Virus record (IMG/VR): IMGVR_UViG_3300024433_000014
Location: 1-43,133 of that record
Source: a virus
Strand: one strand, 5' to 3'
Length of the DNA stretch: 43,133 nucleotides
The translations under genes and the position numbers were made by a program. A model generated the notes under the pieces. The model was not told where the DNA came from. It searched no databases and was given only the letters and a program-made list of their open reading frames with translations. Shown here in pieces: positions 4,538-28,180 of this stretch; position 1 is the stretch's first letter, and the number at the start of each line of letters is the position of its first letter.

Positions 4538-6205
4538 ATGCCGACATTAGAGGTTCCAAAACAACAAGTTCAACCGAAGGTTACGCCAGGTTTGCAATTA
4601 CCACCGGGCGCCTTCGGCGCTGAGGGTCGGGCATTGCAACAACTTGGCAAATCTATGCAATATGCTGCGCATGAACTTTCCGAACTTCGCAAGAGAATCC
4701 TCAAAGCTGAGGAGCAAGACCAATATGATGACGGTTGGTTAGAGCACAAAAGGTCTGTCGCTGAACGAAATTCCGAGTTGGGTAAGAATAGGGAAGCTAC
4801 TCGTGAAGAATTTGATAAAAATTATGATGAAGACCACGCGAAAATTTTAGAAAAAATAAAATCGCCGGAAGCCTATAAAAGGCTGAAACGCGATTTTGCC
4901 CTGGAAGGACTATCGGAAGGTACAAAATATGAGGTTGCTCTTCGCCGATACCGCGTTGCCGAGGCAAGGTTAAAGACACCCATTTTTATCAATCAATTTG
5001 CTCAGGATTTTGCCAATGACGATACACCAGAAGGACAAGCAGATACAATCGGGCGTGTGAAGGAGAAACTTAGCAACGATGTAATATCCGGTGTGCAAAG
5101 TGAGGCTGAGGCTCAGGACATCTTCCGAAGATTTACCATGATGGCCGTGAGGGAGCACGCCGAAAATGACCCGAAAAGAACTGCAGAAGCAGTAAAAAGC
5201 AGGGCATCATTAAAAGAGCTTGGCCTTACCGATGAGATGATTGCATCTTTGAGTGCGGAGGACTTGGATGAGCTACAAAGAGACGCCAAGAGTGAGATTG
5301 AAGGTCGAAAAGCGGAGATAGCCGCTGCGGATAAAGTTGCAGTTGAGGAGGCGGATAATGAATATTATGGTCTCTTTAATGAGGGGGATTTTTCCGCATC
5401 AACACGTCAAAAACTTAAAAATGATCCAAGATATGATAAATTCGAGAAAGAACGAACGGCGATGCTTAAGCGGCGTTCAGATATGATAAAGTCAATAAAT
5501 GACGAAGCGGGGAAAATAGCAACATCTCTTGAAAAATCCACGGCAAGGAATAACTTCAAGAATTTGGTAGATAGAGGTAGGTTCGAGGAAGCAGATAAAT
5601 ATTATACACAAAATGCAGGTATATTTGATTTTCCTGAACTCAAGGAAATGAGTGATTATCTTAGAAGGGCGAAAACAGGACCAACGAATCCCCTTCTCAC
5701 AGATTTTATAAACGCATCAGAAGACTTAACAGCAACAAGGGTAAAAATAGCCGAAGGGGACGAAGAAAAACAAAATGAAGAACGAATAAATGGTATTGCT
5801 CGTAACGCAAATCTTCGCAAGTTATTTGCCGACCCGAAGAAAACAAATAAACAAAAATTTGAAGAAGCAAACGTAATGATTACAGGTGCTCAAGAAGCGG
5901 CGGCTAAGGAAATAACTTTGCATTGGCTTGGAAGATGGTTGAGGCCGAAAGAAACTACACCATTCTGGAGGCATATTGGTACGACTGAAGAAACGGCTCT
6001 TGCCAGGAAGAAAGCAAAGGCCGGAATTAAAGAAGAAATTACTGGAAAAAGTATAAAGTTGCAGCGCGCTCCCGACATTCGACTTGATGATTATTGGAAG
6101 GATTTAACTGATAAGCAAAAACGGGACATTTGGGTCCAATTCGATAAAAATCCAGAAAGTATCAACAGAATAATAGAGATGATACGAAATGCCACAAAGT
6201 CTTAA
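4538..6205 (+). CDS. Internal virion (ejection) protein, gp15-like
   Basis: 555 residues, highly charged and predicted mostly alpha-helical and coiled. The N-terminus is proline/glutamine-rich (VPKQQVQPKVTPGLQLPPG), as in many ejection-complex proteins. There are no membrane segments. It lies between the gp14-like and giant ejection proteins, the usual place of the middle T7 ejection protein, which forms the tube through the periplasm. The end overlaps the next gene by 17 bases. Confidence 0.6.
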   Translation: MPTLEVPKQQVQPKVTPGLQLPPGAFGAEGRALQQLGKSMQYAAHELSELRKRILKAEEQDQYDDGWLEHKRSVAERNSELGKNREATREEFDKNYDEDHAKILEKIKSPEAYKRLKRDFALEGLSEGTKYEVALRRYRVAEARLKTPIFINQFAQDFANDDTPEGQADTIGRVKEKLSNDVISGVQSEAEAQDIFRRFTMMAVREHAENDPKRTAEAVKSRASLKELGLTDEMIASLSAEDLDELQRDAKSEIEGRKAEIAAADKVAVEEADNEYYGLFNEGDFSASTRQKLKNDPRYDKFEKERTAMLKRRSDMIKSINDEAGKIATSLEKSTARNNFKNLVDRGRFEEADKYYTQNAGIFDFPELKEMSDYLRRAKTGPTNPLLTDFINASEDLTATRVKIAEGDEEKQNEERINGIARNANLRKLFADPKKTNKQKFEEANVMITGAQEAAAKEITLHWLGRWLRPKETTPFWRHIGTTEETALARKKAKAGIKEEITGKSIKLQRAPDIRLDDYWKDLTDKQKRDIWVQFDKNPESINRIIEMIRNATKS

Positions 6206-14324: not shown

Positions 14325-14353
14325 TAGACAGGTTAAAGTTTTTATGGTATAAT
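14325..14353 (+). promoter_or_regulatory. Sigma70-type early promoter
   Basis: TAGACA (14325-14330), a 17-base spacer and a perfect TATAAT (14348-14353). The predicted start near 14360 lies about 30 bases before the pseudoknotted leader. It should drive the early region from 14532 onward with host RNA polymerase. Confidence 0.85.
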
Positions 14354-14389
14354 GCCGATAATTGAAAAGTGAATGTTTGGAGTATAAAA

Positions 14390-14500
14390 GCAATGCCGAC
14401 AATTACAAGACTCTCAAATCAAAACAAGAATCCCAAGAATATTGGCCAAGGGGAGTTCTCTATGCTTTTGTCGGCATTGCTACTCCCTTTGTGCCTTTTT
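14390..14500 (+). ncRNA. Pseudoknotted leader RNA of the early transcript
   Basis: Helix A is a 13-bp perfect pairing of GCAATGCCGACAA (14390-14402) with TTGTCGGCATTGC (14468-14480). Helix B pairs AAGGGGAGT (14448-14456) with ACTCCCTTT (14482-14490) as 9 bp including one G-U. The order A-B-A'-B' makes an interleaved pseudoknot in which the two 3' strands are separated by a single base. The G-U pair would be a mismatch on the other strand, which supports plus-strand function. A T-rich stretch (GTGCCTTTTT) follows. It could act as an attenuator or riboregulator. The function is inferred, the base pairing is directly seen. No gene lies between 14196 and 14531. Confidence 0.7.
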
Positions 14501-14531: not shown

Positions 14532-14813
14532 ATGAATAAAAAACTATTAGATAGTGCATTTGAACGAATTAAATCAGAAGCATTAGCATTGCCCGATGTA
14601 AGTGTAGGACATTGTATGTATCCCAAATATGCTTTGGTTTGCACTTGTTGTATTGTCCCTGATGGCGCAAAATCAAAAACAAGTACAGGAGAAGGTAATT
14701 GGGATTTTCCTTATCATATAGATTATTGTCCGAAACATCGGGATACAAAAGAATACCGAGAATTGATAGAAAAAATTGATAAGTTAATCCAAACAGTCGG
14801 TGCAGCCAGTTAA
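14532..14813 (+). CDS. Small cysteine-rich early protein, unknown
   Basis: 93 residues with a CTCC cluster near residue 37 and a later CPKHRD motif, suggesting a metal-binding knuckle. It is the first gene after the early leader RNA. The start is preceded by GAGGCGAATAGATA. No family is recognised. Confidence 0.6.
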   Translation: MNKKLLDSAFERIKSEALALPDVSVGHCMYPKYALVCTCCIVPDGAKSKTSTGEGNWDFPYHIDYCPKHRDTKEYRELIEKIDKLIQTVGAAS

Positions 14814-24782: not shown

Positions 24783-24834
24783 ATTTCAACAACATATGCC
24801 GGAGCGTTGTCGTGCGCTTCAGTGAAAGCTGTTA
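24783..24834. repeat. Structured repeat R1 after a minus-strand gene
   Basis: About 52 bases similar to R2 (25043-25106). An outer AACAAC/GCTGTT stem encloses GGAGCG/CGCTTC (801-806 with 815-820). It overlaps the stop of the minus gene at 24832. In the outer stem one pair works only as minus RNA (G-U), and in the inner stem one pair works only as plus RNA, so the functional strand is unclear. Confidence 0.5.
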
Positions 24835-25014
24835 TTCAGTCAATCCTTTCTTTTTTCGATATTCTTCCTCTGTTATTTGAACCATCCAACGACGACAAGC
24901 ACCAGAGCGACATCTATTACGAGACATCCAAACTTTTGTCTTAAAGAAAGAACCACAATGCTTGCAATGCCAATAAATTGTTTTGCGTGAGTTTTTTTCT
25001 GGTTTCTCTTTCAT
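24832..25014 (-). CDS. 60-residue zinc-knuckle protein
   Basis: CKHC (about 17-20) and a later NRCRSGACRRW cluster suggest a zinc finger, within a very basic protein. The ribosome site AAAGGATGAGAA is preceded by GGGCTTTATTTATG, the same sequence found before the operon's first gene. Last gene of the minus-strand operon. Confidence 0.55.
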   Translation of the reverse strand: MKEKPEKNSRKTIYWHCKHCGSFFKTKVWMSRNRCRSGACRRWMVQITEEEYRKKKGLTE

Positions 25015-25042
25015 TTCTCATCCTTTCATAAATAAAGCCCTT

Positions 25043-25106
25043 GATTTCCAACAGCATACGCCGGAGCGCAACAGGAGGAGATGCTGCGCTCCAGTGAAGG
25101 CTGTTA
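25043..25106. repeat. Structured repeat R2 between minus-strand genes
   Basis: Outer AACAGC/GCTGTT (25050-25055 with 25100-25105) and inner 8-bp GGAGCGCA/TGCGCTCC (25063-25070 with 25085-25092). It overlaps the stop codon of the 25104 gene, matching the position of R1 relative to its gene. Shared segments with R1 include CCGGAGCG and AGTGAA.GCTGTTA. Confidence 0.55.
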
Positions 25107-25289
25107 GGTTTTACAATGAGAAATTAAAGCAGATATTTGGCCTCTCATATATTCTGTTTGGTCAAGTTCTCCGGCATCTTCGTCTGGTGGTGTAAAATCT
25201 TTATTTGGCCGTAAATCCGATTTGCCAGATAATGCAATTTGACAATCGTGAAATCCTGCCTCATAACTATCATATTTGAATTTTGCCAT
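25104..25289 (-). CDS. Small acidic protein, unknown
   Basis: 61 residues, acidic middle (FTPPDEDAGELDQ) and a C-terminal EYMRGQISALISHCKT. Short phage proteins with a DYDAGFHD-type opening and RGQ.. end are common, with no known role. Third gene of the minus operon, five bases after the second. A GAAAGGATAGGAAA site is present. Confidence 0.5.
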   Translation of the reverse strand: MAKFKYDSYEAGFHDCQIALSGKSDLRPNKDFTPPDEDAGELDQTEYMRGQISALISHCKT

Positions 25290-25642: not shown

Positions 25643-25736
25643 AAGCCCCGACACAATATGAGCGCCGACTAAAACGCAGAGGGAAAGTGCCGAGGCTTAT
25701 GCTCAATTTGATTGTTGTCTTAGTCGGTCTCATATT
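25643..25736 (-). ncRNA. Pseudoknotted 5' leader of the minus-strand operon
   Basis: Read as minus RNA: helix A is AATATGAG-A-CCGACTAA with TTAGTCGG-CG-CTCATATT (25736-25720 with 25672-25655), 16 pairs around a small internal loop. Helix B is AAGCCTCGGCAC (25698-25687) with GTGTCGGGGCTT (25654-25643), 12 pairs with two G-U. Both G-U pairs would be A-C mismatches on plus, so minus is favoured. The order A-B-A'-B' with contiguous 3' strands is the same as in the 14390 leader. B' ends about 22 bases before the first start codon. Confidence 0.7.
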
Positions 25737-25743
25737 AAATAGT

Positions 25744-25772
25744 ATTATCGACTGTTTCTTGAGCAATTGCAA
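25744..25772 (-). promoter_or_regulatory. Minus-strand promoter
   Basis: Minus strand: TTGCAA (25772-25767), 17-base spacer, GATAAT (25749-25744). The predicted start near 25737 is the first base of the pseudoknotted leader. Confidence 0.65.
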
Positions 25773-26467: not shown

Positions 26468-26807
26468 GGACAAGCAGAGAGAGGCCAACAGGAAGGCTAA
26501 ACAGAGGCAACGGGCTAAATGTGGTATTGATGATATACCGCCCAGTAAGCGTGAGCAAGATTTAATAACAAAAGGTATGACTAAACAGGGTATGACAGTA
26601 ACAAGCAGCCCCTCAAACGTCATACCCAAGCGAGGCAAGGATATCAAGTGCTTCGCGGACCTGCCGCCGGACGTGCAAGAGACTATCAATGCGATGAGTA
26701 TGGACTGTGACCCAGTTGTAGAAGCGCAAAACAAAGCGATGAGGACAGTCATAGCTCTTGGCTACCAACACCTATACCCGGACAGATATTATTCGACAGG
26801 TATGTAA
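26454..26807 (+). CDS. Conserved small protein before the terminase
   Basis: 117 residues from ATG 26454. The opening MYKDKDKQREANRKAKQRQR is a basic helix found in many phage proteins located between small and large terminase genes. The rest holds a DLPPDVQETINAMS segment. The last stop base is shared with the next ATG (TAATG), so translation is coupled. It may bind DNA in packaging, which is inference. Confidence 0.5.
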   Translation: MYKDKDKQREANRKAKQRQRAKCGIDDIPPSKREQDLITKGMTKQGMTVTSSPSNVIPKRGKDIKCFADLPPDVQETINAMSMDCDPVVEAQNKAMRTVIALGYQHLYPDRYYSTGM

Positions 26808-28180
26808 TGAAGCGCAGAGAGTTCTTAAAAGCAAGCGCAGCAGCAGTTGCAGTTGGAGCTGGTTGGATCGCGGACCTGTCAGCTGCCAGCGACGACGATA
26901 TAGACTACATTGGCGGCAAGATACTCGGATATAAGCCGTTACCAGCCCCGGCGGCTTTCCACAGGAGTCAGGCAAAGTTTCGCTGGATAATGGGTGGGAG
27001 CAGGTCCGGCAAGTCTGAAAGCAATATCGGGTATGATTTATGCTCATTTGCGATAGGGATACACCCGTTTCGTAAAACCCCCAAGAAGGCCACAATATGG
27101 GCTGTAGCTGATTCCTGGCCGTTAGTGGGTAAACTACTGTGGGGTGAGAAGGTCAAGGACTATTTGCCTTCTGAGCAGATAAAAAGGATAATCTGGCATA
27201 ACACACGAGAGGAAATACCTAAAGAGATACAGTTAGTCAACGGTAATAAAATTGAGTTTAAGTCGGGTGAGCAAGGTCGTAAGGCGTTTGAAGGTCGTCC
27301 GTTACATGCTATCTATCAAGACGAGCAGCTAAGCGGAGACTCTGTGGGTATCTTTACTGAGATACAGGCCCGGCTACTGGATTATCATGGATTCTTTGCT
27401 GGTAGTATGACACCCATTCAGCCCCAGCCTTGGCTTGAGGAGCGGGTAATTAACTTACCGCCAACTGATGAGATATTCTATGCCAACTTGAATGACAACC
27501 GTAGGAGTCGGGGCGGATACATTCCCGATGCAGAGATTGATATGATGATAGCTGACTGGCCCGCCGAGGTGCAACAGACAAGAATTGAAGGCTATTTCGC
27601 TGCCTTCTTTGGCGCCGTCTATAAGACGTTTAGCCGCAAGGTCCACGTCTGCAAGCCGTTCAAGATACCTAACGACTGGCAGCGATACCGGGCTATCGAC
27701 TGGGGCTTCAACAATCCATTTGTCTGTTTGTGGATGGCAAGAGACCACGATAATCGCTGGTATGTGTATAATGAGCATTACGCGGCCCAGCAGACATTAG
27801 CCTACCACGCGGCGGAGATTAAGCGAATAAGCGGCAAGGAGCGATATCGCGTTACGTGGGCGGACCACGAGGCCCAGGAGCGGCACGAGTTCAGGCAATT
27901 GGGTATAGATACCATGCCGGCTAAGAAGGACAGGCATTTGGGCATTGAGGTTGTCCGGGCGGCTCTTAAGGTACAGGGCGACGGCAGGCCGAGGCTACAG
28001 ATATTCGATACTTGCAAGCACACGATTAAAGAGATGGGAGGCTATAAGTGGGCTGAAGGCAACGAGACGAGGGATGCAAAGGATGAGCCGTTGCAACTCA
28101 ACGACCACACTTGCGATTGTGTGAGGTATGGTATCTACGGCGTTGACCACAAGGGCTATTTTAGTAGGCTGGTGGCATAA
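26807..28180 (+). CDS. terL: Terminase large subunit with a Tat-type signal peptide
   Basis: 457 residues. Walker A GGSRSGKS at 63-70, Walker B-type IYQDEQ at about 169-174, then a C-terminal nuclease domain beginning RYRAIDWGFNNP (D298) with WADHE (D353) and CDCVRYG near the end. It packages DNA by ATP-driven translocation and cuts it. The N-terminus is MKRREFLKASAAAVAVGAGW, then IADLSAA: a twin-arginine motif (RREFLK), hydrophobic core and AxA-like end. No alternative start codon exists in frame before Walker A, and the ATG is fixed by TAATG coupling. A Tat leader on a packaging motor is highly unusual. Confidence 0.9.
   Translation: MKRREFLKASAAAVAVGAGWIADLSAASDDDIDYIGGKILGYKPLPAPAAFHRSQAKFRWIMGGSRSGKSESNIGYDLCSFAIGIHPFRKTPKKATIWAVADSWPLVGKLLWGEKVKDYLPSEQIKRIIWHNTREEIPKEIQLVNGNKIEFKSGEQGRKAFEGRPLHAIYQDEQLSGDSVGIFTEIQARLLDYHGFFAGSMTPIQPQPWLEERVINLPPTDEIFYANLNDNRRSRGGYIPDAEIDMMIADWPAEVQQTRIEGYFAAFFGAVYKTFSRKVHVCKPFKIPNDWQRYRAIDWGFNNPFVCLWMARDHDNRWYVYNEHYAAQQTLAYHAAEIKRISGKERYRVTWADHEAQERHEFRQLGIDTMPAKKDRHLGIEVVRAALKVQGDGRPRLQIFDTCKHTIKEMGGYKWAEGNETRDAKDEPLQLNDHTCDCVRYGIYGVDHKGYFSRLVA

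Follow-up and report, generated by a model that had tools for sequence, protein, structure and literature searches.

Introduction

Several described RNA leaders share part of the organization analyzed here. The classical H-type pseudoknot, in which the 5' arm of stem 2 adjoins the 3' arm of stem 1, has a phage representative of ABA'B' topology in the mRNA leader of T4 gene 32. The put RNA of phage HK022 is a structured RNA that starts several operons of one phage; put sites comprise two simple hairpins of conserved sequence without a terminator, and put-like RNAs depend on specific contacts. The pyrBI leader of E. coli lacks a 5'-anchored pseudoknot and its frame is led by a Shine-Dalgarno (SD) sequence. 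Its leader peptide gene (pyrL), a frame of some 40 codons, has an intrinsic terminator inside it that is suppressed by coupled translation, just as a ribosome near RNA polymerase suppresses intrinsic terminators (PMC5021804, PMC4824070). The ribosome-mediated attenuators of trp and his combine a leader peptide, alternative hairpins and a terminator before the first gene, and leader frames of this type end 20 nt or more before the terminator (PMC4824070).

The leaders described below were first seen in a virus sequence of 43,133 nucleotides (IMG/VR record IMGVR_UViG_3300024433_000014; this whole stretch is termed the window) and differ from each of these systems. In contrast to the H-type knot, their two 3' arms adjoin, helix A extends over 10-21 bp and a U-run comes next; a scan of HK022 finds no such pseudoknot; unlike trp and his, they have no regulatory codons and their frame crosses the terminator; and, as compared with pyrBI, most of them are leaderless, the terminator loop of 18-43 nt holds A', and no conserved U-rich sensing tract was seen. 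They would nevertheless appear to work most like pyrBI, a likeness in mode of action that stops short of established membership.

Two leaders of one design in a single phage

An earlier note on the window had proposed that an early transcript of the minus strand folds in the order A-B-A'-B' with contiguous 3' strands, and that a leader of another operon, near 14390 on the plus strand, shares this layout. An unbiased scan of both strands of the whole window, which listed all contiguous pseudoknots of this order blind to that finding, returned these very leaders as the two best-scoring knots: the minus RNA 25736-25643 scores 68.5, the best on its strand, and 14389-14491, with the same layout, scores 58.5, the best on the plus strand, the next-best values being 45.5 (plus) and 41 (minus). 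When the window was shuffled locally 60 times with dinucleotides preserved, the top score averaged 49.1 +/- 2.9 and never exceeded 56. The fold on the minus RNA is thereby borne out, as is the use of one leader design in two operons of the phage. In the 25736-25643 leader, helix A has 19 bp arranged around a 1x2 internal loop, helix B has 12 bp, and the gap between A' and B' is 0 nt (Table 1); the two G-U pairs of helix B, to which one in helix A can be added, are possible on the minus RNA only, just as had been noted.

The placement of helix A within a base of the predicted +1 (25737, for a -10 element ending at 25744) also agrees with the earlier note. Promoter scores of this order arise by chance (6 found as against 6.1 expected in the region), so that it is mainly the relatives that tie the promoter to helix A. 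The 14390 leader lacks this 5' anchoring, with helix A set back about 29 nt from the predicted +1, and the start codon of its frame has a Shine-Dalgarno sequence. The GGAGT holding this sequence (14379-14384) can pair with ACTCC of B' (14481-14486), so that SD and B would compete for B'. Separately, the -10/+1 region of this leader, AATGCCGATAATT at 14351-14363, is repeated 41 nt downstream, at 14392-14404 inside its helix A, as if the leader had been shifted by duplication.

Table 1. Positions in the window of the two pseudoknotted leaders and their associated features
Feature	Position	Strand	Sequence	Remark
Promoter-like site of the 25736 leader	25744..25772	minus	-35 TTGCAA, 17-nt spacer, -10 GATAAT	consensus match only, 9/12
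Helix A, 5' arm	25717..25736	minus	AATATGAG a CCGACTAAGAC	includes leader start codon ATG 25733-25731
Loop L1	25699..25716	minus	AACAATCAAATTGAGCAT	A-rich, G-poor
Helix B, 5' arm	25687..25698	minus	AAGCCTCGGCAC	
Helix A, 3' arm (A')	25655..25675	minus	GTTTTAGTCGG cg CTCATATT	
Helix B, 3' arm (B')	25643..25654	minus	GTGTCGGGGCTT	adjoins A'; U-rich UAUUUAU next; intrinsic-terminator-like
Leader reading frame, 35 codons	25626..25733	minus	MRPTKTTIKLSISLGTFPLRFSRRSYCVGALFMKG	TAG stop overlaps the SD region of the first gene (AAAGGATAGGAAAATG)
First gene of the minus operon, 52 aa	25463..25621	minus		without Pfam match
Promoter-like site of the second leader	14325..14353	plus	TAGACA-17-TATAAT, extended TG	11/12
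Second leader, helix A, 5' arm	14389..14402	plus	AGCAATGCCGACAA	
Second leader, helix B, 5' arm	14447..14456	plus	CAAGGGGAGT	
Second leader, A'	14468..14481	plus	TTGTCGGCATTGCT	
Second leader, B'	14482..14491	plus	ACTCCCTTTG, then TGCCTTTTT	adjoins A'; GGC/GCC could lengthen the stem up to the U-run
Second leader reading frame, 41 codons	14393..14518	plus	MPTITRLSNQNKNPKNIGQGEFSMLLSALLLPLCLFNPKRQ	GGAG upstream; stop 13 nt before the gene at 14532

The window has some further elements of interest. The stretch GGGCTTTATTTATGAAAGGAT around B' and the SD of the 25736 leader recurs without a pseudoknot before a later gene of the same operon (window 25012-25040, minus), and the same recurrence is seen at 6012-6041 (minus) of the related record L011. 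Related hairpins of the form AACAGC..GGAGCGCA..TGCGCTCC..GCTGTT lie at 25050-25108 and 24784-24836 (minus), each starting at the stop codon of a minus gene, with the gene 25014-24832 between them; they resemble the attC sites around an integron cassette, with R' boxes (GTTGGAA/GTTGAAA) that depart from GTTRRRY. The large terminase subunit of the window, of L005, L006 and of relatives shows a Tat-signal-like N-terminal stretch, RRxFLKxSAA (26807-26860 in the window), and the Pfam TAT_signal model matches the terminase start with E 0.0012, under the cut-off.

Relatives of the leaders in other phages

Relatives were gathered via the large terminase subunit (TerL) of the window, the set of related viral-contig loci growing from 9 to 54 and then to 80. 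Whole records were fetched, since TerL loci with short flanks mostly lack a leader in the vicinity of TerL; the leaders lie in putative early regions. As covariance models take no pseudoknots and the leader sequences do not align, a purpose-written descriptor was used, in which a structure scan of the related records (about 2 Mb of related phage DNA) was followed by the addition of promoter and U-run; a GC limit of 55% removed the GC-rich records L093 and L096, which yield many chance knots. The result is at least 18 leaders in 11 uncultured phage records, alike in shape and unlike in sequence, with up to four per phage: besides the two of the window, four occur in G032, three in G001, two in G028, and one each in L011, L084, L104, L120, G005, G007 and G026, i.e. 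16 further leaders in 10 other viral records. A near-identical record, IMGVR_UViG_3300009529_000092 (99.9% identity to the window), adds nothing.

The specificity of the search was gauged in several ways. Structure and U-run alone, applied to 1.8 Mb of relatives (locus overlaps counted), recover all leaders except that of L134, plus two other matches. Control DNA of 545 kb (54 bacterial loci, lambda, HK022 and a Faecalibacterium phage) yields two weak matches, scoring 53 and 52.5, and the same scan finds no leader in 118 kb of three further cultured phages. In scans made blind to the frame, the true leaders head the lists, and the chance matches lower down have either short frames or no frame that extends past B'. 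It is thus very improbable that the leaders are a product of chance or an artefact of the pairing search: the helices were indeed selected by pairing, and two weak chance matches occur in the phage set (L080:3167 and L177:5255), but the shuffle maximum of 56 falls short of 68.5, and the open frame, the 5' ATG and the gene just downstream, none of which was used in the search, accompany the high-scoring set.

One such relative is L011, whose terminase is 71% identical and which carries its leader at the corresponding site and in the same orientation, with the putative early region on one side and the terminase genes on the other. Here the promoter spacing of the window and the tail TATTTATGrAAGGAyAGGA are kept, and the helices are wholly unlike those of the window (A AGATATGA/GCTGCTCGA, B AAAAGTCCCCGGTC), both arms having changed together. 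Since the helices were found by pairing, pair counts across leaders are no independent proof of covariation. A classical covariation count would need close homologues, and protein searches gave none: the 14532 protein, the 52-aa protein and the L084 integrase each matched only the same virus or record. An exact-pattern scan of viral and genome collections with the tail TTTATTTATGRAAGGAYRG, a pattern that mostly equals SD context, returned only L011 and the twin of the window as true instances.

Other pre-gene elements were encountered among the related loci. On the minus strand of L019 (1223), which has the tail sought in the exact-pattern scan, an 18-bp hairpin with a 25-nt loop and without a clear helix A ends directly at this TTTTATTTATGAAAGGATAG tail before a gene. 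At L008:460-510 and L081:1140-1190, pre-gene leaders share a short hairpin and the tail CCGTTTTTTGTTGCCC, and are perhaps a separate terminator-type element.

A common shape without a common sequence

Read from the sequences, the helices and the A'|B' junction recur throughout: A' and B' adjoin directly in 15 of the 18 leaders and are at most 2 nt apart in the others; helix A spans 10-21 bp and helix B 8-16 bp, with mean energies of -18.7 and -21.0 kcal/mol, respectively. Over the leaders there are 54 G-U pairs that exist in the sense RNA only. Loop L1 is rich in A (46%) and poor in G (9%), L2 is without strong bias, and the 18 leaders have neither a common helix sequence nor a common loop motif. 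The strand order is similar to that of self-cleaving HDV-like ribozymes, in which the helix corresponding to A is about 7 bp long; such a ribozyme was rejected in view of the length of helix A and the absence of an Rfam match.

All 18 leaders have a U-run after B', and the B:B' stem contains G+C; in 14390, L104 and L134 the U-run is a few bases off, and lengthening the stem across a bulge could bring it up to the run. B:B' therefore looks like an intrinsic terminator with a long loop: at 18-43 nt (mean 30) the loop exceeds the usual short loop of intrinsic terminators (about 3-8 nt) because A' lies inside it, and a simple terminator scan of the window does not report B:B'. Upstream, 5-8 nt separate the -10 element from helix A in most leaders, so that the predicted 5' end of the RNA is the first base of helix A. 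Some leader promoters score only 7-9 of 12, and L215:9678 has no recognizable one. Just before the latter leader, at L215:9634-9677, lies a tRNA-like half with a T arm GCAGGTTCAACTCCTGC and an acceptor-like CAGGGCA, in which ARAGORN calls no tRNA.

This combination bears on the proposal of the earlier note that the two leaders share a regulator, for example antitermination or a phage protein that binds them. CCGAC/GTCGG is indeed present in both helices A of the window but means little, the helix A sequences of relatives being wholly different, and it was rejected as a binding motif given its absence there. Control of termination or antitermination fits the form of B:B' with its U-run, whereas a leader-binding phage protein finds no support in helices and loops without common sequence. 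The particular case of processive antitermination, where the folded 5' RNA would stay with RNA polymerase, as put RNA of HK022 does, and carry it past later terminators, could account for leaders at the 5' end of several operons per phage (as in G032 and G001); it is improbable in that it leaves the U-run after B' and the open frame unexplained, a conserved sequence or loop is lacking, and the shape differs from that of HK022, where the same scan finds no leader.

The first genes after the leaders are equally dissimilar. That of L084 encodes a tyrosine integrase (Pfam E 3e-18), those of L104 and G032 encode HNH-like proteins, those of G001 and G005 helix-turn-helix or replication-like proteins, with a zincin-like one also in G001, and those of the window encode proteins without assignment; the 52-aa protein of the minus operon has matches in this virus only. 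This diversity argues against autoregulation by one leader-binding protein. We accordingly regard as unlikely a leader that binds a protein or protects the mRNA, be it through a sealed 5' end that slows decay or through autoregulation by the 52-residue basic protein or a zinc ribbon: the start of helix A at the predicted +1 would leave the 5' end paired, as such protection would have it, but the first genes vary from leader to leader, the 52-aa protein is confined to this virus, and no shared sequence is available in helices or loops.

A reading frame open through the knot

In 18/18 leaders a frame (16 ATG, 2 TTG) begins at helix A and stays open past B', whereas the other two frames are open past B' in 2/18 and 7/18, the stops across the three frames numbering 0, 41 and 17. 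The TTG-only starts are those of L211 and L215:10667. When pairs and loops were shuffled with the structure kept, 4.2 of the 16 ATG frames were expected to be open, and the probability that all are is about 2e-10. Start codons were sought at most 20 nt from helix A, so a little choice is built into the frame test; a first-ATG rule gives 15/16. The ATG itself is enriched: it lies at most 20 nt from the start of helix A in 16/18 leaders against a background of 28% (P = 1.3e-7).

In most leaders the start codon falls at predicted +1 to +5, which leaves no room for an SD; those with room upstream (14390, L139) have an SD-like GGAG or AAAGG before it. Neither a sequence common to the leader peptides nor a run of regulatory codons was found in the 18 leaders. 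The frames stop at least 7 nt after B', and in most leaders the stop falls inside the first gene, at it or a short way ahead of it; two leaders of G032 have a stop codon that shares bases with the following ATG, and in another G032 leader the frame runs on into the gene without interruption.

Proposed mechanism

The helices, their junction, the U-run and the open frame are read directly from sequence; the start of transcription, translation of the frame, termination, pausing and the sign of the control are inferred. On balance, we favor the leader as probably being a translation-controlled transcription attenuator, analogous to pyrBI with an added pseudoknot. Transcription would begin at helix A, placing the start codon at the 5' end of the RNA, and B:B' with the U-run would be an intrinsic terminator ahead of the first gene. 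A:A' would conceal the start codon and, by drawing its ends together, pack the long loop, so that without translation the RNA would fold up into a compact knot and transcription would end. A ribosome that engages the 5' start codon ahead of the synthesis of A' would instead follow RNA polymerase, and its presence on A, L1 or B during the synthesis of B' would keep the terminator from closing, with the operon being transcribed as a result. B' is made about 30 nt after B, i.e. about where a coupled ribosome would cover B; if no ribosome came, A:A' would reclose the start codon. Given a frame open past the U-run and usually ending near or within the first gene, translation could then pass on to the gene.

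Timing is the demanding part of this scheme. Ribosomes have been argued to rarely catch polymerase in the first 100 bp unless it pauses (PMC4824070), so with leaders of 80-105 nt either the polymerase would have to pause or ribosomes would have to load very quickly on a leaderless start; the scheme assumes that the host initiates on leaderless RNA. No conserved tract, such as a U-rich sensing tract, was seen upstream of the terminator in the 18 leaders. A:A' could itself serve as a pause hairpin: the exact A'|B' junction may leave a distance of about 11-14 nt between it and the polymerase at the point where B' is almost fully made, giving the ribosome time to catch up.

Nested fold predictions give A- and B-hairpins that are similar in energy and mutually exclusive, a result that can also be read with the opposite sign. 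In this main rival, to which we give a clearly lower though still appreciable likelihood, A:A' is an antiterminator: by forming ahead of B:B' it would lock B inside a closed loop and block the winding of B:B', making read-through the default, and a ribosome or factor on the 5' arm of A would free A' and permit termination. Its merits, beyond the exclusive hairpins of like energy, are that A' is always made just before the adjoining B', and that in the 14390 leader the pairing of GGAGT upstream of A with ACTCC of B' would make the two states exclusive. It leaves unexplained why the frame is open through B' and past the U-run in 18/18 leaders, and a ribosome on A would soon be over B.

More tentatively, the leaders may constitute a previously undescribed class of RNA regulators defined by shape alone, in which a 5'-anchored knot with adjoining 3' arms would lock the start codon, terminate transcription and be translated as a leader all at once, and which one phage would use repeatedly so that its operons need a ribosome at the 5' end. 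If true, such operons would fall silent once translation breaks down, and likewise under transcription entering from outside.

Novelty and significance

Rfam, at gathering and permissive thresholds, gives no family match: the window has 0 matches, a 201-base stretch that includes the 25736 leader gives nothing but a miRNA match attributable to chance (E 0.78), and five stretches holding ten leaders give only a tRNA elsewhere. In the open literature, which was the part searched (subscription papers lying outside it), we found no description of this leader architecture. What appears to be new is the pseudoknot whose 3' arms adjoin, together with the leaderless start and the use of several such leaders by a single phage.

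Since no fixed sequence defines the device, it is missed by sequence-based families such as those of Rfam; it precedes very different genes. If it works as proposed, it would be a compact, portable switch that ties transcription to translation, and would offer a test case both for the speed of leaderless ribosome loading on nascent RNA and for the sensing by phages of translation shutdown by host defence.
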